Shown here: positions 5,127-17,607 of the stretch, piece after piece
Layout: each line of letters starts with the position of its first letter
How positions within the stretch are numbered: position 1 is the stretch's first letter
NCBI GenBank assembly: GCA_013298045.1
Contig: JAAFJI010000009.1
Coordinates: forward strand, 1 to 33,765
Direction of reading: 5' to 3'
Source of the DNA: Betaproteobacteria bacterium
GTDB taxonomy: Bacteria; Pseudomonadota; Gammaproteobacteria; Burkholderiales; Casimicrobiaceae
DNA: 33,765 nucleotides
Program-made: the position numbers and the translations under genes
The notes under the pieces: model-generated
Told to the model about the DNA's origin: nothing
The model's input: the letters and a program-made list of their open reading frames with translations, nothing else
Databases searched by the model: none

Positions 5127-5210
5127 ACGGGTCGCGCTGAGGTCGCTGCGGCAGAAAACGCCGTAGCGTCTACGATTGCAGTCTTTCGTCTGTCTCCATT
5201 GATCGCCGCT

Positions 5211-7562
5211 ATGCGCCTGTCCGCACCCTTCATTCGTCTTCCGTTTCAATGCGACGCAAGCGCCCTCGCCACCGAAGTGCGCAAACTCGCGCCCGAGCTC
5301 TGGCGCGCACATCCCGAAGGACATACGGGTAATACGGCGCTGCCGCTGGTCGCGCTCGGCGGCAATCCCGACGACGACGGTGTCGCCGGGCCGATGCGTC
5401 CGACCCCAGTGCTCGCGAAGTGCCCCGGCATTCGCGCGGTGATGGCGGCGCTCGACGCACCGATCGGTCGCTCGCGTTTGATGCGCATCGAGGGCAACGC
5501 CGAGGCGACGATGCATGTCGATACGAATTACTACTGGCAGCAGCGGGTGCGCGTCCATGTGCCGATCGTCACCACGCCGAACGTGCGATTTTTGTGCGGC
5601 GACGCTGACATCAACATGGCACCCGGCGAGATGTGGATTTTCGACACCTGGCGCATGCACAATGTCATCAACCCGGAGCCGACCGAGCGCATTCATCTGG
5701 TCATCGACACCGTCGGCTCGCCTGCGTTTTGGCAATGGGCAGACGAATCGGCACGCGGCGCGCGCACCCAGATTCGTTTCATCGGCACCGACGCGACCAC
5801 CGATTCGGGGCTCACATTCGAAGCGCGAAACTTTCCGGTGGCGATGCGACCCGAGGAACAGCGGCGTTTCATCGATTGGCTGCGTGCCGATTTGTTTCAT
5901 CCGACGCAAACGGCATTCGGCAGCGCGGGCGTGTTCTTCGGTTTGATTGAGCAGTTTCATCATCGATGGTCACAGAGCTGCACTGCACACGCCACTCACG
6001 AACAACTCGCCGCACTGCTCAACGCCTTCGCCAACGAAATCGCCCCGTTTCAGGGGCAACTCAAACTTGCCAACGGCAGCGACGCCGCGTTTATTGCACG
6101 GCAATGGTTGATCACGCCCGCGCTCAATCCGATGCTTGAAAACGTCTACGCGAATGCTGCGACGGCCTCGCCGTTTGCGATAGCACCCTCGGCTCCGCTA
6201 GTCAACGAAGCCCGCGCAAACGGTGCGCCGCCGTCGCCATCGGCACGCACGCCTGCCCCGGCGCGGGCGACCGCGAAACCAGCTCGCAAAACACGATTCG
6301 ATCGCCCGGTGTTTATCGTCGCCGCACCGCGCTCAGGCTCGACGCTGCTTTTCGAGACGCTTCTGCAATCGCCCGATTTCTATACGGTCGGCGGGGAAGC
6401 GCACGGCTTCTTCGAGCGCTTCGATGTGTTGAAACCTGCAAAGACCGGCTGGCAATCCAACCAGGCGAGCGCTGCGCTCGCAACTGGCGAACTCACCGCG
6501 CTCTTGGAGAGTGTGCTGCTCACAGCGCTCATCAATCGCGATCAAGCGCTGATACCCGCGTCCAACTCGCCGTTTCGCTTTTTGGAGAAAACACCGAAGA
6601 ATGCGCTTCGCATTCCGATGCTCTCGGCGATGTTTCCCGATGCGCGCTTCATTTATCTCTATCGCGAGCCGCGCGACAACGTGAGCAGCATCATCGATGC
6701 CTGGCAAAGCGGCGGCTTCGTCACTTACCCCGACCTGCCGCAATGGGCACCGCTCAAATGGTCGCTCGCGCTCATTCCCGGTTGGCGCGATTTGATTGGC
6801 AAGCCGCTCGGCGAGATCGCCGCACAGCAATGGGCAATCGTCAATCAAATCATCCTCGACGATTTGTCCGCACTGCCGCGCGAGCAATGGTGCACGGTGA
6901 GCTACGACACGTTTCTTGCAAATCCGAACGCCGAAGCGGCGCGCCTTTGCAATTTCGCAGGTGTTTCCTGGGATCGGCCAATCGACGGCGCGCTAAAACT
7001 TTCGCGACACACGCTCACCGCACCCGATCCGCAGAAGTGGCGGCGGAACTTCGATGTATTGCGCGAGGGCTGGGCGCGCGTTGAGGCCGTCGCGGAACGT
7101 GCGCGCGAGATCGTTGGCGGGGTCAGCGAACTGTCGCTAAACGAGCCGATACCTGCGGGTACGTCGCTTGCTGCGTCCGCGCCGACGCCGCTCGCGCAGC
7201 CGCCTGCGCTCGTCGCGGCCGCTGCGTCACGCGCCGCGTCAGCCGCGCCCATCGAGACCGCTGTGCCCCACCCCTTCAGCAGTACGCCATCGGCCAATCT
7301 CGCTCACTTATTGCAGCAGCTCAAAATCTCGGTGGCGATCACCACATACCAAAGCAATCAACTCTTACTCGTGCGCTCGCGCAACGCCGAACTCAACACC
7401 CATTTCGTTGAATTCAAGCGACCGATGGGCATGATCGGCGACGGTCGTCGATTATTTTGGGCACCCATCGCGAGGTCATTGAATTTCGCAACATGCCCGA
7501 CGTCGGTCGCCTGCGCGAGGACAAGCCGGATGCGGTCTACGTGCCACGCGTGTCGCATGTGA
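5211..7562 (+). CDS. Aspartyl/asparaginyl beta-hydroxylase domain + PAPS-dependent sulfotransferase domain + start of TIGR03032-like domain (apparent frameshift near 7455-7458)
   Basis: N-terminal RLMRIEGNAEATMHVDTNYYWQQRVRVHVPIVTTPNVRFLCG...GEMWIFDTWRMHNVINPEPTERIHLVID (H-x-D...H 2OG oxygenase core). Then RPVFIVAAPRSGSTLLFETLLQSP...FLEKTPKNALRIPMLSAMFPDARFIYLYREPRDNVSSIIDAW (sulfotransferase PAPS motifs). Then LKISVAITTYQSNQLLLVRSRNAELNTHFVEFKRPMGMIGDGRRLF. ORF track start is 5199. Confidence 0.85.
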   Translation: MRLSAPFIRLPFQCDASALATEVRKLAPELWRAHPEGHTGNTALPLVALGGNPDDDGVAGPMRPTPVLAKCPGIRAVMAALDAPIGRSRLMRIEGNAEATMHVDTNYYWQQRVRVHVPIVTTPNVRFLCGDADINMAPGEMWIFDTWRMHNVINPEPTERIHLVIDTVGSPAFWQWADESARGARTQIRFIGTDATTDSGLTFEARNFPVAMRPEEQRRFIDWLRADLFHPTQTAFGSAGVFFGLIEQFHHRWSQSCTAHATHEQLAALLNAFANEIAPFQGQLKLANGSDAAFIARQWLITPALNPMLENVYANAATASPFAIAPSAPLVNEARANGAPPSPSARTPAPARATAKPARKTRFDRPVFIVAAPRSGSTLLFETLLQSPDFYTVGGEAHGFFERFDVLKPAKTGWQSNQASAALATGELTALLESVLLTALINRDQALIPASNSPFRFLEKTPKNALRIPMLSAMFPDARFIYLYREPRDNVSSIIDAWQSGGFVTYPDLPQWAPLKWSLALIPGWRDLIGKPLGEIAAQQWAIVNQIILDDLSALPREQWCTVSYDTFLANPNAEAARLCNFAGVSWDRPIDGALKLSRHTLTAPDPQKWRRNFDVLREGWARVEAVAERAREIVGGVSELSLNEPIPAGTSLAASAPTPLAQPPALVAAAASRAASAAPIETAVPHPFSSTPSANLAHLLQQLKISVAITTYQSNQLLLVRSRNAELNTHFVEFKRPMGMIGDGRRLFWAPIARSLNFATCPTSVACARTSRMRSTCHACRM

Positions 7563-8326
7563 GCGGCGAAATCGATATTCACGAATTGGGGCTCGGGAAA
7601 AAAGAGCTGTGGGCGGTGAATACACGCTTTTCATGCCTCTGCACGATTGACTACGACCACAGTTTTGTGCCGCGTTGGCGACCGTCGTTCATCACGAGTT
7701 ATTCGACCGAGGATCGTTGTCATTTGAATGGCCTCGCGATGGTCAACGGGCAGCCGAAATACGTGACCGCCCTCGGCGAGACCGATCACGCCCGCGGCTG
7801 GCGCGACAACAAGGCCTTCGGCGGCATCTTGATGGATGTGGATACAAAACAAGTGCTGCTGCGTGGGCTCTCGATGCCGCATTCGCCGCGCTGGTATCGC
7901 GACACCTTATGGTTTCTGGAATCCGGCTACGGCGCGCTCTGCACCTTCAACAAAAAAACCGGCGAGAAAAAAATAATTGCGACGATGCCGGGCTTCACCC
8001 GCGGACTCGATTTCTACGGTCCCTTAGCCTTCATCGGCCTCTCGCAGGTGCGCGAAACCGCCTCCTTCTCCGGCATTCCGATTACCGAGATGGACATCGA
8101 GCGCACCAGCGGTCTCTACGTGATCAACATCGAGACCGGCGAAACGGTGGCCTTCCTTCGATTCAACCGGCAACTGCAAGAGGTCTTCGCGGTGAGCGTG
8201 CTGTCGGGCAATCAATGGCCGGAGCTGCTCGGGCGCGACGATGAAACGGTGGGCGGTGCGTATGCGCTGCCGAACGATGCGCTACGCGAGATTCGACCTG
8301 CGCCGGCTGCGCCCAATCAGAGCTGA
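7457..8326 (+). CDS. TIGR03032-like conserved domain protein, C-terminal continuation of the preceding ORF after an apparent -1 frame change
   Basis: GTHREVIEFRNMPDV...VYVPRVSHVSGEIDIHELGLGKKELWAVNTRFSCLCTIDYDHSFVPRWRPSFITSYSTEDRCHLNGLAMVNGQPKYVTALGETDHARGWRDNK; no independent N-terminus, continues the domain begun in the 5211 ORF. Confidence 0.8.
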   Translation: MGTHREVIEFRNMPDVGRLREDKPDAVYVPRVSHVSGEIDIHELGLGKKELWAVNTRFSCLCTIDYDHSFVPRWRPSFITSYSTEDRCHLNGLAMVNGQPKYVTALGETDHARGWRDNKAFGGILMDVDTKQVLLRGLSMPHSPRWYRDTLWFLESGYGALCTFNKKTGEKKIIATMPGFTRGLDFYGPLAFIGLSQVRETASFSGIPITEMDIERTSGLYVINIETGETVAFLRFNRQLQEVFAVSVLSGNQWPELLGRDDETVGGAYALPNDALREIRPAPAAPNQS

Positions 8327-8517: not shown

Positions 8518-10023
8518 ATGAACGTTCGGATGCCTACCGCGCCGCGCCCACTTGCGTCGGCGTTGCTTGCAGCGGGGCTTGGTTTTGCCGCCATTCCCGC
8601 CCATGCCGCCACCTTTACCGTTTCAACCACTGCAGACGCAGGTCCGGGCAGTTTGCGGCAAGCCTTGTTAGACGCAAACGCCTCTGCTGGTGCGGACACG
8701 GTGGTCTTCAACTTACCTGCCAGCAGCGTGATTACGCTGAGCACTGGCGAAATTGACATCACCGAGACCGTCACAATCACCGGTCCCGGGGCAAGCAATC
8801 TGACGATTACCACCAACCGCAGCAGCCGCGTGTTTGCCATGACCGGCGCTGGCACCGTTGGGATCAGTGGGCTCCGCTTCGCGAATTCTGGCGCGACCGC
8901 GCCCGCATGCGCACCCGGCGGCGCGCTCTATTCCTCCGACACCAGTTTGTCGATCTCGCAATCAGTCTTTCATAACAACTCATCTGGAACCTGTGCGGGC
9001 GGAACACTCTATTTCACGTCAGAGGGAACGACGCCAACGCTCACCGTCACAGACAGCACATTCACCAACAACTCGGCCGGCACGGGCTCGCAAGGCGGTG
9101 CACTCTACATTCGTGGGGGTATCGCCAACATCTCACGCAGTGTCTTCTCAGGAAATTCGTCGGGAGACACCGGCGGCGCGATTTACGCCTATGACCATGC
9201 GGGGCTCACCATTCGAGATTCGGTGTTCACATCCAACACTGCTCCTGCGGGCGGTGCCATCGAAAGCCGCGACACGAGCGGTAGCGTGAACATCTCGGGT
9301 TCGACCTTCAGTGGCAATACGGCCACAGACACTAGCGGCAAGGGGGGCGGAGCAATCGCGCTTTACGGAAGCGGCGCGTCCGTGATCGAGAACTCAACGT
9401 TTACCGGAAACACAACGGCTGGTAGTGAGGGTAGCGCGATTTACTTGTACACAACGTCGCTAACGCTTCGCAATGTCACGATCTCTGGAAATACAGGCTC
9501 CTCCGCAGGAGCCGTCCGTGCAGAAGCCGAATCGACCCGTACGCTCACGCTCATCAACACCGTGGTGGCCGGAAGTGGCGCTCCCGACGTTTCCACGTCA
9601 GGTCTTTCAGCAACAGGAACGAATTCGTTGGTCGAAAATCAGACCGGTCTGGGCTTGGGCGGTTCCGGCAACCTGTCAGGCGCGCCAAACCTTGGGGCGC
9701 TCGCCAACAATGGCGGGTTGGTCGTGGGTGCATCGGGCTTCACTTCGCCCATTCTCACGATGCTGCCGATCGCGGGCAGCCCGCTCATTGACAATGGCAG
9801 CGCCGCCGCGCTCGGCACGTTGACCACTGACCAGCGTGGCGCAGGTTTCGCGCGAGTCACGGGCAGCAACCCCGACATTGGTGCGGCCGAGTTTGGCTCG
9901 GGTGTGGTCGTGCAGGCAAGACCACCCGCAGTTGTCCCGACATTGGGAGCGCTGGGCTTGCTGCTCACGTCGCTACTCACGGCATTCACTGGCGGATTGA
10001 GCTTACGGCGTCGGCGAAAATAA
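8518..10023 (+). CDS. Secreted parallel beta-helix surface protein (choice-of-anchor-Q-like) with C-terminal IPTL-CTERM-type sorting signal
   Basis: Signal peptide; repeats such as SVFHNNSSG, STFTNNSAGTGSQGGALYI, SVFSGNSSGDTGGAIYA, STFSGNTATDTSGKGGGAIAL; NPDIGAAEFGS; C-terminus VVPTLGALGLLLTSLLTAFTGGLSLRRRRK. Confidence 0.85.
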   Translation: MNVRMPTAPRPLASALLAAGLGFAAIPAHAATFTVSTTADAGPGSLRQALLDANASAGADTVVFNLPASSVITLSTGEIDITETVTITGPGASNLTITTNRSSRVFAMTGAGTVGISGLRFANSGATAPACAPGGALYSSDTSLSISQSVFHNNSSGTCAGGTLYFTSEGTTPTLTVTDSTFTNNSAGTGSQGGALYIRGGIANISRSVFSGNSSGDTGGAIYAYDHAGLTIRDSVFTSNTAPAGGAIESRDTSGSVNISGSTFSGNTATDTSGKGGGAIALYGSGASVIENSTFTGNTTAGSEGSAIYLYTTSLTLRNVTISGNTGSSAGAVRAEAESTRTLTLINTVVAGSGAPDVSTSGLSATGTNSLVENQTGLGLGGSGNLSGAPNLGALANNGGLVVGASGFTSPILTMLPIAGSPLIDNGSAAALGTLTTDQRGAGFARVTGSNPDIGAAEFGSGVVVQARPPAVVPTLGALGLLLTSLLTAFTGGLSLRRRRK

Positions 10024-10147: not shown

Positions 10148-10795
10148 TCAAACTTTTGGGCGAATCCGCATATTGAACGCGACCGAAATCCGCTCGGAGT
10201 CGCTCCGGTGCGGTGTGACGTAATGCTGCATCCAGCTCGGGAACATCACCAGCAAGCCGGCCGTCGGAACGGCACGAAAGCGAATCTCTCCCTGATCGGG
10301 AACGCCAAGGATCGTCGCGTTAGCCCGTGGATCGAGGAGCTCCATGCGACCGCCAGGCTCATCGGCCGCGATGCTTCGAGGATAGTAAACGCCCGACCAA
10401 GAGTAGCCGCCGTGTGCATGCACCACATGAAACGCATGCGCCGGTGAGACATTGGCCCACGCCTCCACTTCGACCGATGCATCCAGCGGCGCAGCATCTG
10501 CGGGTCGAACCTGGCGAGTGATCCGGTGCATCGCCTCAAGCGCCGCGTCGCGCAACATGGCGCATTCCGAGGTGGGCCAGTTGAACAAGTCGCGCGGCGA
10601 CTGCCATCCGCCGCGATTCGAAATTTGCCGCGACACCGGCATGGCCGCACGTCGCGCCAAAATGGTTTCAACGAGCCGCTCGTTGAATTGCTCGTTCGAA
10701 AAGGGCAATGTCCACTGCAGAACTGGGGTCGCGAAATGCCAGTAAACCATCCGCTCGGGGCTCGGCTCAACACGACCTAAAGGAAAGGCATTCAT
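10148..10795 (-). CDS. Putative 2OG-Fe(II) oxygenase (TIGR02466 / 2OG-FeII_Oxy_5 type)
   Basis: VEAWANVSPAHAFHVVHAHGGYSWSGVYYPRS...GRMELLDPRA...PTAGLLVMFPSWMQHYVTPHRSDSERISVAFNMRIRP. Confidence 0.8.
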   Translation of the reverse strand: MNAFPLGRVEPSPERMVYWHFATPVLQWTLPFSNEQFNERLVETILARRAAMPVSRQISNRGGWQSPRDLFNWPTSECAMLRDAALEAMHRITRQVRPADAAPLDASVEVEAWANVSPAHAFHVVHAHGGYSWSGVYYPRSIAADEPGGRMELLDPRANATILGVPDQGEIRFRAVPTAGLLVMFPSWMQHYVTPHRSDSERISVAFNMRIRPKV

Positions 10796-10816: not shown

Positions 10817-12679
10817 CTACCCAGCGCGATCCAAGAATTCGATGATTTGCTCGGCGGCCGCCACAGCATCGATGTTCGCTGTGTCAATCCGAAGCTCTGG
10901 GGAAACGGGCGCTTCGTAGGGCGCATCGATCCCGGTGAAATTACGCAGCTCACCCCGCCGCGCTTTTTTGTAGAGCCCTTTCGGATCGCGCGACTCGGCG
11001 AGTTCGAGCGAGGCGTCGACAAAAATTTCAACGAACTCATCGGTGGCGAATTTCTCGCGCACCATCTGTCGCTCCGCCGCGTACGGGGAGATGAAGGACG
11101 CAATCACGATGAGCCCGGCGTCCACCATGAGCTTCGCCACTTCCGACACGCGTCGAATGTTTTCCACGCGATCGGCTTCGGTGAATCCGAGGTCGTGACA
11201 CAGACCATGACGCACGTTATCGCCATCGAGCAGATAGGTGTGCCGCCCCATTGCATGCAAACGCTTTTCCACGAGGTTCGCAATGGTCGATTTACCTGCG
11301 CCCGACAATCCGGTGAGCCAAAGCACGCGCGGGGTCTGTCCAAGCGCGCTCGATCGCGCGGCGCGATTGACGGTGAGCGTTTGCCAATGCACATTTTGCG
11401 AGCGGCGCAGCGCAAAGCGAATCATGCCGGCCGCGACCGTTTCATTGGTGCTGCGGTCGATGATGATGAAGCTGCCGGTGTCGTGTTGCTCGACGTACGG
11501 ATCGAATGCAATCGGCTGCGCCGTCGTCACGACGCAAACGCCGATATCGTTGAGCGCGAGCGTTTTCGCGGCGATTTGCTCAAACGTGTCCACGTTGCGA
11601 CGAAACTTGGGCTCGCTCAGCGTCGCACTTACTGTGCGAGCGCCGACCTTCATCAGATACCCGCGCCCGGCGACGAGCGGCGTGTCACTCATCCACACAA
11701 TGTCGGCTTCGAACTGATCGGCCACCTGTGCAGGCGCGTTGCGCGCAACGATCAGGTCGCCACGACCGACATCGATCTCATCGGACAAAACGACCGTTAC
11801 CGAGCGACCGGTCGTTGCCACCTCAATCGAGTCATCGCCCCAGGTAACGATTTGTTTGACCGTCGTTTCGCGTCGCGACGGCAACACCGTCACCGCGTCA
11901 CCAACGCGCAAGCTGCCCGCGAGCACGCGACCGCTGTAGCCGCGAAATGCGGCGTTCGGGCGATTGACCCATTGCACCGAGAAGCGCAGCGGTTGATCGC
12001 CCAATTCGCGCTCGCCTGCTTTCACCGAGTGCAAATGCGCAAGCAGCGTCGGACCGCTGTACCAGGCCATCGCGTCGGAGGCGTGGCAGACGTTGTCGCC
12101 ATGAAACGCGGAGAGCGGAATGCTCACGCAATCGGTCAACGCGAGCGACGCCGCAAAGCTACGGAAATCCGCGTCGATCTTTGCAAATACCGCTTGATCG
12201 AAATCGACCAAATCCATTTTGTTCACCGCAAGCACGAGGCTTTCCACACCGAGCAGCGCGATCACATGACAATGCCGCCGCGTTTGCTGGAGCACGCCTT
12301 TGCGCGCATCGATCAACACCACGGCAAGGTCCGCGTTCGAGGCGCCGGTGACCATATTGCGGGTGTACTGCTCGTGACCGGGCGAATCGATCACGATGAA
12401 CTTGCGCTCAGGCGTGGCGAAGTAGCGATACGCGACGTCGATGGTGATGCCCTGCGCGCGCTCAGCCGCCAACCCGTCGACCAAAAGCGCCGGATCGAGC
12501 GCATCGCCCTGGGTGCCGAATTGTTTGGAGTCGCGGGCGAGCGCCGCGAGCTGATCCTCGTAGACCGAGTTCGTATCGAGCAGGAGCTTGCCGATCAGCG
12601 TGCTTTTGCCGTCGTCAACGCTGCCGCAGGTAACGAAGCGCAGCAGCGAGGTCGCATGTTCGTTCGCGTGCCCGCTCAT
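10817..12679 (-). CDS. cysNC: Bifunctional sulfate adenylyltransferase large subunit / adenylylsulfate (APS) kinase
   Basis: GTPase half [30 protein letters not shown]...[19 protein letters not shown]...NKMDLVD. APS kinase half [83 protein letters not shown]. Confidence 0.96.
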
Positions 12680-13593
12680 CAGAAATAGCCCTCACGCTTT
12701 TTGCGCTCCATCGAAAACGCGGTGTCTTTGTCGATGGCGCGACCTTGCCGCTCGGATTGCCGGCTCGCGCGAACCTCCTCGACAATGTCCGCCACCGTCG
12801 TCGCGGAGGACTCGACCGCACCAGAGAGCGGGTAGCAGCCGAGTGTGCGAAAACGCACTCGCCGAATGCCGGGTGTTTCCTTCGGTTCAAGCCGCATTCG
12901 ATCATCATCGACCATAATCCAAATGCCATCTCTGCGAACCACTGGACGAGGCGCTGCGAAGTAAAGCGGTACGATTTCAATCTGTTGATGCAGGATGTAT
13001 TGCCAAATATCGAGTTCGGTCCAGTTTGAAAGCGGAAACACGCGAAAACTCTCGCCAGCGTGTTTGCGAGCGTTCACTAAGCGCCACAGCTCCGGGCGCT
13101 GGAGCCGTGGTTCCCACTGGTGCGCGGTGGTTCGGTGCGAAAACACACGTTCTTTGGCGCGGGATGCCTCTTCGTCGCGCCGCGCGCCGCCAAACGCGCA
13201 ATCGAAACCGTGCAGATTAAGCGCTTGCCGCAGCCCTTGCGTTTTCCATTCGTCGGTGTGCCGTGAGGAGCCGTGATCGAACGGATTGATCCCCGCCGCG
13301 AGCGCATCGGGATTGCGATGCACCAGCATCTCGATGCCCGGTTGCGCCGCGATCTTCGCGCGAAAGGCGATCATTTCCCGGAATTTCCAGGTCGTATCCA
13401 CATGAAGCAGCGGAAACGGCAGCGGCGATGGGTAAAACGCCTTCTGCGCGAGGCGCAGCAACACCGAGCTGTCTTTACCGATCGAATACAGCAGCACCGG
13501 ACGCTCGCATTCGGAAACGGCTTCGCGAAAGATGTCGATGCTTTCGTCTTCAAGACGCTGCAAATGCAGTGGCAAATCGCGCGCTAGACTCAT
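12679..13593 (-). CDS. cysD: Sulfate adenylyltransferase subunit 2 (small subunit)
   Basis: [41 protein letters not shown]...[16 protein letters not shown]...[16 protein letters not shown]-terminus [13 protein letters not shown]. Start [26 protein letters not shown] at 13593; overlaps cysNC. Confidence 0.95.
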
Positions 13594-13697
13594 CGCGCTA
13601 TTTTGCACGGAGCGCGCAGCCTCGCTCGCGCCGCAGGCGTATGGATTCGTGCCACGGCTAAGAACATGCGCGCACCGGAGGACATAGAACCTAGCGC

Positions 13698-13727
13698 TTG
13701 GCAACGCCCGGCGTTTCGGGCTAGAAT
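13698..13727 (+). promoter_or_regulatory. Candidate sigma70 promoter for rpsF-rpsR-rplI
   Basis: TTGGCA (13698-13703), 18-bp spacer, TAGAAT (13722-13727), in the divergent cysD/rpsF region. Confidence 0.55.
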
Positions 13728-13864
13728 CGCGGGTTCTGCTCCACGGCACATACGTCTGCTGAATTCTTCGGAAACAGGCGGCGGCTAATTCAAAACGTCG
13801 GGAGTCGGTAAGGCGCTTCGAGTGATCGAAGCAATTTCTGTCCATAGAAACGAAAGGCAATGAC

Positions 13865-14227
13865 ATGCGTCATTACGAAATCGTCTTTATCGTCCATCCG
13901 GACCAAAGCGAACAAGTCCCGACGATGGTTGAGCGTTATCGCTCCCTGGTGACGGGCAAAGGCGGAAAAATTCACCGCTTAGAGGATTGGGGTCGCCGCC
14001 AGTTGGCCTACGCGATCAACAAAGTCTACAAAGCGCACTATGTGTGCATGAACATCGAGTGCGATGCGGAAACGCTCGTTGAACTCGAGACGTCGTTTAA
14101 GTTCAATGACGCCGTGCTGCGTCATCTGACCGTCAAAAAAGACGGCGCTGAACTCGCCCCATCGCCCATGATGACCGGCGAAAAAGCCAAAAACCTGAAC
14201 GCGCCGGAAACGGCCGAAGCCGAATAA
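13865..14227 (+). CDS. rpsF: 30S ribosomal protein S6
   Basis: [53 protein letters not shown]; operon context. Confidence 0.97.
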
Positions 14228-15252: not shown

Positions 15253-15957
15253 TCACCGCAAACCTCGTCGCCGAAACATTCCTGCCAACAGTGCGATGCC
15301 GAGCGCAAGCGCCATCATCGCCCAGGCGCTAAGCGTTGGTACGACCGTTGGAGCCGCCGCTGCCACCACGACTGTCGTCGCAAGTGTGCTCGACCCGCCT
15401 GCGCCATCGCTCACGCTCACAGTGAAGCTGTATGAGCCAATCACCGTGGGCGCACCGGTCAATGTGCAATTCGGGTTAAGCGCAATGCCCGGCGGCAACG
15501 CGCCCGCCACGAGCGTGCAGGTGTAAGGCGGCACGCCGCCGCTCACGCCGATACCCCCGACGTAGCTTTGCCCGAGCACGCCAGGCGGCAATGCGGGGGA
15601 CAGACTGAGCGCGTAGGCGATCACATTGACCCCGGCGAGAACCTTCGCCTCGCGCCCGTCGGCATCGGTCGCCCAGATTTCGAACGGGATCGTCGCCGGT
15701 GCGGGCGTGCCGGTAAGACTGCCAGCGGGCGAGAGTGTCATACCGTTGGGCAAACGGCCCACTTCGTTGGTAAACGCATAGGGCGCTTGACCGCCGCTCG
15801 CCGTGAACGCCTGGCTATAAGGCACGCCCGACGTACCTGGAGGCATGCTGCTCGGTGCGATCGTCACCTGCGCGAAGGCGAGCGCGGTCGCGAGCGAAAA
15901 CGCCGCCGCGACGATGCGCCTTGCCTTCCGGCGCAGGACAAAGATAGGATTCGACAT
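15253..15957 (-). CDS. Secreted protein with putative-Ig repeats and IPTL-CTERM sorting signal
   Basis: Two He_PIG-like repeats (GVPYSQAFTASGGQAPYAFT..., GQSYVGGIGVSGGVPPYTCTLVAGALPPGI...); C-terminus VVPTLSAWAMMALALGIALLAGMFRRRGLR. Confidence 0.85.
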   Translation of the reverse strand: MSNPIFVLRRKARRIVAAAFSLATALAFAQVTIAPSSMPPGTSGVPYSQAFTASGGQAPYAFTNEVGRLPNGMTLSPAGSLTGTPAPATIPFEIWATDADGREAKVLAGVNVIAYALSLSPALPPGVLGQSYVGGIGVSGGVPPYTCTLVAGALPPGIALNPNCTLTGAPTVIGSYSFTVSVSDGAGGSSTLATTVVVAAAAPTVVPTLSAWAMMALALGIALLAGMFRRRGLR

Positions 15958-15978
15958 GATGAAGCCGCTCCGCCCGCG

Positions 15979-17607
15979 TTAGCGGCGCGCGCCGGTGATG
16001 AGCGCCTCCAGCGCGTTCATACGCTCGCGAAGCGCGTTGAGTTCGCGATCCTTGTCGGCGAGTGCGGCAGTGAGCGCCTGAATCGCGCCGAGCGCAACGC
16101 CCGCCATGTCGCCTGGTGCGATTGCTTTCGGATTGTTGCCGAGCGAAAAGGTGCGATGAAAGTCCTCAGCCGTCGGTCCAAGATGCTGCTCATCCTTGCT
16201 CGACGCAAGATAGTTCCAGGTGTAAATCGGCAGCTTGGCGACCGCTTGAAGCAAGCGCTCACCACTCACCGGAATCATGTTCTCCTTGAGCGTGATCGAC
16301 GAAGCCTGGGTCAGCGCACCGGTAATGTTCAAATTGCCATTGGCCGCGAGCGTGAGCTGCGGCGTCCCCGCGCCGGCGACGTTGACGCGGAAGCCGCCCT
16401 GACCGGCAGTCGTCTCCCAGGTGGTCACAGGCGCTGCCGTGGTCTGGTAGCTCACCGTCACGTCGCCGTTGTTGACCAGGCTCGCGAGGGTGCGTGTGGC
16501 CGTGGTCGCGCTCGCCTCATCAACCAGCAAGCGCGTACTTCCGTCCTGGCGACGAAGATGCAAGGGTTGTGCGGGCGACGCGGTGCCGAAGCCTACATTG
16601 CCGCTGGCTGCGATATCGATCGCACTCGTTGGCGCGCCGGGGCGAATACGAAACGGTAGACGGTTTCCGCCAGTCTGATCGCGCACAAAAAAGTTCGCTT
16701 CGTTGCCAGCGACGTCCCAGGTCTGCGCGGTGTAGCCGCCGCTGTTGTTTTGCTCAAAGCGAATCGCCGGGGTGTCCGATGTGTTGGCGTGTATGTCAAG
16801 CACCGGCGTGGCCGTGCGCAGTCCGATCTTTCCGTTGTTGCCGATGAATAAACTGTTGGTCGGCGCACCGCCGCTCACGGTAAACGGAATGGTCACACTC
16901 GTGATGTCTTCAATCGAAAACTTATTCGCCCCGCCGCTGGCCGAATCGTTGGCCGTGAGCTGCCAATCGGTGGCCGGGAATGCACCAATGCTCGTGTCCT
17001 CAAACTTGATGCGGGTGTTGTTTTCTTTGAGACGGATGGTGTCGAAGCTGAAAACTTCGTTGTCAACGCAGTCAAAGCCGACGCAAAGGCTACCCTGAAC
17101 GATTTGATCGTCGGGAACTACGACATCCTTGCTGTCGTCGCGACGGGTGCGTTTGCTCGCGTCGCTTGCGACCTTGCCATCGGCTGCCCGTTTGGTCGTG
17201 TCTCGACGCTGCGGCTCCTCCGGACCCGCCGTATAAAGCACGCCGCCCTGAATCAGGAACGCGCCGTTTCGCGTCGCCACCTGCGGCGGCGTTCGCGGCA
17301 CATCGCGACTGAGTCCACGCGGCGCGACCGACGACACAAAAGTTAACTCGTAGGTGTAATTTCCGGCCGCGAGCTGCGCCGGATCGGCGACGATCTGCAC
17401 CGCCTCGGCACCGAAGTTGCGCTCGGTGACGCTACCGTCTGGGCCTGCGATGCGAAGGGTCGCCGCAGCATGCGGGAAATCCGTCGCCCATCGCAATTGC
17501 GCCCCGCTTTGCGACTGGGTGACCGGTCGATTCGATGACGAAGCAAGCGTGATCGTTGAACTCGCCGCGAGCGCACAGGCAACGAGCGTTAAGACAAAAT
17601 TTTTCAT
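15979..17607 (-). CDS. Secreted protein with C-terminal Peptidase_S74-like intramolecular chaperone domain
   Basis: Signal peptide MKNFVLTLVACALAASSTITLAS; C-terminus ASSITLKENMIPVSGERLLQAVAKLPIYTWNYLASSKDEQHLGPTAEDFHRTFSLG...IAPGDMAGVALGAIQALTAALADKDRELNALRERMNALE. Confidence 0.75.
   Translation of the reverse strand: MKNFVLTLVACALAASSTITLASSSNRPVTQSQSGAQLRWATDFPHAAATLRIAGPDGSVTERNFGAEAVQIVADPAQLAAGNYTYELTFVSSVAPRGLSRDVPRTPPQVATRNGAFLIQGGVLYTAGPEEPQRRDTTKRAADGKVASDASKRTRRDDSKDVVVPDDQIVQGSLCVGFDCVDNEVFSFDTIRLKENNTRIKFEDTSIGAFPATDWQLTANDSASGGANKFSIEDITSVTIPFTVSGGAPTNSLFIGNNGKIGLRTATPVLDIHANTSDTPAIRFEQNNSGGYTAQTWDVAGNEANFFVRDQTGGNRLPFRIRPGAPTSAIDIAASGNVGFGTASPAQPLHLRRQDGSTRLLVDEASATTATRTLASLVNNGDVTVSYQTTAAPVTTWETTAGQGGFRVNVAGAGTPQLTLAANGNLNITGALTQASSITLKENMIPVSGERLLQAVAKLPIYTWNYLASSKDEQHLGPTAEDFHRTFSLGNNPKAIAPGDMAGVALGAIQALTAALADKDRELNALRERMNALEALITGARR

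Follow-up and report, generated by a model that had tools for sequence, protein, structure and literature searches.

To our knowledge, few bacterial protein sulfotransferases have been described, with RaxST of Xanthomonas as the clear precedent. This tyrosylprotein sulfotransferase depends on 3'-phosphoadenosine 5'-phosphosulfate (PAPS), requires essential residues of the Arg, Ser and His/Glu classes and is encoded beside its secreted substrate (PMC6637879). Here we describe a locus at positions 5211-8326 of the window, by which we mean the whole analysed stretch of 33,765 nucleotides of contig JAAFJI010000009.1 (Betaproteobacteria bacterium). The locus encodes a 2-oxoglutarate (2OG)-dependent oxygenase, a sulfotransferase and a DUF4915/TIGR03032 domain, and lies beside a secreted beta-helix gene and genes for PAPS synthesis. 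Judged by its published description, RaxST appears to be the closest functional precedent for this fusion: both place a bacterial sulfotransferase gene beside a secreted protein, and the fusion has the same essential residue classes. RaxST differs in that its substrate is a 60-residue peptide precursor that leaves by type I secretion, its PAPS comes from housekeeping genes and no hydroxylase or propeller is reported (PMC6637879).

Relatives of the individual domains come from more distant settings. Human TPST1/TPST2 are Golgi enzymes that lack an oxygenase or propeller, CurM belongs to the polyketide pathway for curacin, and L-proline cis-4-hydroxylase acts on a free amino acid and has neither a sulfotransferase nor a propeller. 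Our literature searches found no paper mentioning TIGR03032, DUF4915 or choice-of-anchor Q, and no enzyme combining a hydroxylase with a sulfotransferase; the link between the fusion and its beta-helix neighbour is new here.

A three-domain fusion recurs across phyla

Profile searches confirmed the three domains that the original prediction had placed in one locus, all with scores above curated cut-offs: PF05118 (40.9 bits against 22.6; E 2.4e-10), PF13469/Sulfotransfer_3 (89 bits against 27; E 7.1e-25), PF16261/DUF4915 (352.6 bits against 35; E 2.6e-105) and TIGR03032 (344 bits against 251.5; E 7.6e-103). Reading along the forward strand, the 2OG-Fe(II) oxygenase domain (5211..5744), with HxD...H...R at residues 102, 104, 150 and 160 counted from the ATG at 5211, is followed by a helical stretch and a Pro/Ala-rich linker (5745..6260), assigned from an AlphaFold2 (AF2) model of the relative L056. 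The sulfotransferase domain (6306..6974) carries a PRSGS 5'-phosphosulfate-binding (5'-PSB) motif, GGExH and a REPRDNVSS 3'-phosphate-binding (3'-PB) motif, and the DUF4915/TIGR03032 domain (7296..8227), identified by PF16261 and TIGR03032 and predicted, with Foldseek matches, to be a six-bladed beta-propeller, extends over two frames. Inspection by eye found no signal peptide at the N-terminus (MRLSAPF).

In the window the gene is not a single open reading frame (ORF). Two overlapping frames, 5199..7562 (first ATG 5211) and 7457..8326, match DUF4915 profile positions 2-61 and 57-315, respectively, which places the break inside this domain (7452..7490, forward strand). The frames are offset by one base, and the shift lies near 7455-7490, by a short T run at 7455-7458. 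Because L052, L053, L055, L056, L060 and L061 are each one uninterrupted ORF, the split appears from these sequences to be a lesion or assembly error of this metagenome-assembled genome (MAG), not ancestral design. We rejected a programmed frameshift, which would require a -1 shift without a good slippery heptamer at 7452-7460 and is at odds with the unbroken relatives.

A profile covering the oxygenase and sulfotransferase domains led to ten named loci (L052-L061). The six uninterrupted ORFs, 964-1009 aa in length, contain all three domains and come from Acidobacteriota (L052, L055, L060), Ca. Contendobacter (L053, L056) and Pseudomonadota (L061), and they establish the fusion as a genuine single protein of about 1000 aa. 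Two further loci are cut by contig ends: the ORF of L054 (Acidobacteriota) reaches into the third domain, and that of L058 (Solirubrobacteraceae) ends after the second, so that a triple fusion is only presumed there. Together with the window, these make nine triple-fusion loci. L057 and L059 (genomes G060 and G066), from the window's own family, encode the hydroxylase-sulfotransferase portion only, and no DUF4915 was found in either genome. The two enzymes are neighbouring separate genes in G028, G069 and G073. At L039, L040 and L041, which belong to three genomes within a single sister genus, the hydroxylase and sulfotransferase genes lie unfused about 10 bp apart. Among the genomes sampled, a fusion-type hydroxylase, recognised by its long open frame, turned up in 2 of 347 Acidobacteriota, in 2 of 41 from the Contendobacter order and in 1 of 299 from the Solirubrobacteraceae class, each time in a genome already known. 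The fusion is rare and patchy across phyla, a distribution that suggests spread by horizontal transfer.

Catalytic residues and folds

Oxygenase residues H102, D104, H150 and R160 are invariant across 11 homologues, as are sulfotransferase residues R367, E389/H391 and S486 (L056 numbering; 5'-PSB Arg, Glu/His base and 3'-PB Ser) in the aligned homologues. The AF2 model of the L056 fusion (mean predicted local distance difference test score, pLDDT, 79.9; predicted template modelling score, pTM, 0.41) has three modules of uncertain mutual placement joined by disordered linkers, with helices at 220-311 and a disordered linker at 323-353. In Foldseek searches with these modules, the oxygenase resembled proline hydroxylases and AspH, the sulfotransferase resembled TPST2 and CurM, and DUF4915 resembled six-bladed propellers (SAKe6 and nidogen).

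In the original label of Asp/Asn beta-hydroxylase, 'Asp/Asn' is no more than the Pfam family name of PF05118; the nearest solved relatives are proline hydroxylases, namely proline 3-hydroxylase and L-proline cis-4-hydroxylase (4p7w; profile E 5.6e-10), with whose HxD...H and R the fusion oxygenase aligns. AspH (aspartyl/asparaginyl beta-hydroxylase), which acts on proteins, has the Pfam family and fold in common with the fusion (6yyu, 1.4e-6) but is farther from it than the proline hydroxylases; in the fusion, unlike AspH, the HxD carboxylate is present. The sulfotransferase domain has the fold of a tyrosylprotein sulfotransferase (human TPST2, 3ap3; Foldseek 2e-8) and aligns with TPST1/TPST2 at the 5'-PSB motif and the Glu of the GE position, although sequence similarity is weak (2.5e-4). 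Since the CurM domain is about as close in fold, and is the top sequence match among solved sulfotransferases (7e-8), fold alone cannot assign a tyrosine sulfotransferase.

A conserved beta-helix neighbour and local genes for PAPS synthesis

The strongest context for the fusion, overlooked in the original prediction, is its conserved beta-helix neighbour together with apparently dedicated PAPS genes. In the window the neighbour (8518..10023, forward strand) encodes a secreted right-handed beta-helix of the choice-of-anchor Q type with an IPTL-like C-terminus (NF041518, 1.1e-11; PF13229, 2e-14), which we consider a candidate substrate. Such a gene adjoins 8/9 triple-fusion loci, window included, at roughly 20-190 bp, in divergent orientation in six and co-directionally in two; the neighbour of L053 is seen as a fragment only, and at L055 a beta-helix gene lies about 2 kb from the fusion. 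The C-terminal parts of these helices vary (Calx-β, DUF11, Ig, IPTL-CTERM). Fusion genomes hold 1-7 choice-of-anchor-Q genes, and on these counts we rejected chance adjacency, which is very unlikely even allowing for some dependence among the loci.

On the reverse strand follow a CysN-CysC fusion (10817..12679; NF004035, 5.6e-289), comprising the ATP sulfurylase large subunit and the adenosine 5'-phosphosulfate (APS) kinase that makes PAPS, and CysD, the ATP sulfurylase small subunit (12679..13866; TIGR02039, 8.7e-141). Elsewhere the genome carries an assimilatory set of CysD, a second CysN and CysH. The fusion's PF13469 domain is the sole Sulfotransfer_3 match in the genome, a MAG that is 90% complete, other sulfotransferase families not having been searched genome-wide. 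With this, and because the second CysN lacks the kinase and CysH is APS-reductase-like, the cluster CysNC looks dedicated to supplying PAPS for sulfation. CysD/CysNC also occur near the fusion in L061 and near the hydroxylase-sulfotransferase in L057. The functional link between hydroxylase and sulfotransferase that had been proposed is supported by their fusion in one set of genomes, by their neighbouring positions in another and by the clustered PAPS genes.

Tyrosines in the coils of linked helices

The linked helices share a coil motif, GG[GAS][IVLMFA]xx followed by Tyr at position +6. A motif scan of the window beta-helix places Tyr225, Tyr283 and Tyr311 at this GGxIxxY position (codons near 9190, 9364 and 9448, forward strand). 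As controls we used 48 proteins from genomes in which no triple fusion was found, both relatives of the window and members of the Contendobacter order. Tyr occupies +6 in 25/60 coils of linked helices vs 22/279 control coils (Fisher 1e-9, with coils of one protein, and related proteins, not independent), and +6 Tyr was the most enriched pair in a scan of 41 positions and 820 residue-position pairs. By protein, the motif is present in 8/8 linked helices vs 14/64 others (p 3e-5) and in 0/16 unlinked anchor-Q proteins of fusion-bearing genomes, with two further unlinked carriers, both in G100. One Tyr is invariant in 10/10 aligned helices, of which eight are linked and two come from G100. AF2 modelling of the L056 beta-helix (pLDDT about 90 over 60-415) places Tyr249, 277, 305 and 334 at the ends of four successive stacked strands.

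The two G100 helices, L078 and L079, are anchor-Q proteins with no adjoining fusion in a genome that carries two fusions. Because a search for a third copy near them found none, they could only be trans substrates at most. Among other anchor-Q helices, L150 (G463) has Tyr in 5/7 coils, and the flank read there shows no domain of the fusion type.

Proposed mechanism and alternatives

We put the probability at roughly 0.45 that the fusion is a cytosolic tailoring enzyme that modifies the neighbouring secreted beta-helix protein before export. The analysis establishes the architecture, recurrence, neighbourhood, PAPS genes and Tyr enrichment; from them we infer an activity, substrate, site, order of steps, propeller role and export after modification along the following lines. 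The propeller would dock the beta-helix polypeptide and the oxygenase would hydroxylate one of its side chains. PAPS and 2OG are cytosolic; the clustered CysD/CysNC would supply the former to the sulfotransferase, which would transfer sulfate to the beta-helix coils, the likeliest acceptors being Tyr at one position of successive coils, where they would form a surface ladder. The modified protein would then leave by Sec export. The Tyr evidence allows hydroxylation and sulfation at two separate sites. More doubtful is the fuller proposal of a dedicated bacterial system in which a single chain, combining both enzymes with a propeller that reads the substrate, adds hydroxyl and sulfate groups to a stacked Tyr ladder on secreted beta-helix surface proteins.

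Several points, the non-independence of the coils among them, weigh against modification of the neighbouring beta-helix. We know of no activity or modified protein for the fusion, and small molecules are common substrates of the hydroxylase and sulfotransferase families concerned. The Tyr motif was first spotted by eye in the same proteins later tested. It is not exclusive to linked helices, a possibility rejected because 14/48 control helices from genomes without the fusion carry it, and five motif-bearing control loci had no fusion-type domain nearby. Divergence of fusion and helix was weakly and not significantly correlated in a mirror-tree comparison (rho 0.48, p 0.08); the helix tree is repeat-based and unreliable, and no single linked-helix clade was read from it. 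G060 and G066 keep the hydroxylase-sulfotransferase, and no beta-helix was found in the flank read. Finally, the genome-wide search for sulfotransferases covered the Sulfotransfer_3 family.

An unlikely alternative, in our estimate, is that the product of the enzyme is a small molecule, lipid or surface glycan, both sulfated and hydroxylated, which the beta-helix protein binds or displays. In its favour, the nearest oxygenases of solved structure use free proline or other small molecules, CurM comes from a polyketide pathway, and other DUF4915 genes have a sugar epimerase and CysC (L048) or a carbamoyltransferase (L042) nearby. Against it, the window proteins scanned include no polyketide, nonribosomal peptide synthetase or glycan-synthesis genes, and what stays constant beside the fusion is a secreted protein. 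Sequential chemistry on a single beta-helix residue, with the oxygenase hydroxylating Asp, Asn, Pro or Lys, for example, and the sulfotransferase sulfating the new hydroxyl, follows the order of chemistry in the original prediction and seems to us less probable still. Both activities reside in one chain, or in adjacent genes in G028, G069 and G073, CurM, the top sequence match, is a polyketide-pathway sulfotransferase, and Asp and Lys are enriched directly after the coil Tyr in the residue-position scan; yet among the hydroxylatable residues specific to linked helices none equals Tyr in conservation, the next position being D, N, S, K, G, Q or R.

Patchy distribution would also fit the transfer of both genes, for the beta-helix and for the multidomain enzyme, as one unit with no enzyme-substrate relation. 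We regard such ordinary co-location as improbable, because adjacency is kept in divergent and co-directional order despite different helix C-terminal modules, and the linked helices carry a distinctive coil residue.

Other genes of the cluster and DUF4915 elsewhere

A second 2OG-Fe(II) oxygenase gene (10148..10795, reverse strand; PF13759, TIGR02466) follows CysNC at a distance of 21 bp, in the same orientation, and perhaps represents another tailoring step. Farther along, 15253-17607 (reverse strand) encodes an Ig/IPTL-CTERM protein and a Peptidase_S74 (endosialidase chaperone) protein; a 2384-aa S74 protein also lies beside DUF4915 and CysC at L048. The GntR/UTRA regulator and sugar-acid genes 5' of the fusion look unrelated to it.

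DUF4915 genes without enzyme domains include, besides L042 and L048 (where CysC is an APS kinase), L043 near a TPR/glycosyltransferase-41 protein and a gene near an anchor-Q protein in G083. At L046 (G063), a DUF4915 gene is split into two ORFs by an in-frame TGA. DUF4915 may serve more generally as a partner of modifying enzymes.

Implications

The conserved pairing of enzyme and neighbour yields a concrete candidate substrate and site, and gives an initial functional lead on DUF4915/TIGR03032. If modification of the neighbouring beta-helix is borne out, it would represent an undescribed bacterial route for decorating surface proteins and could show sulfate decoration of bacterial surface β-helices.
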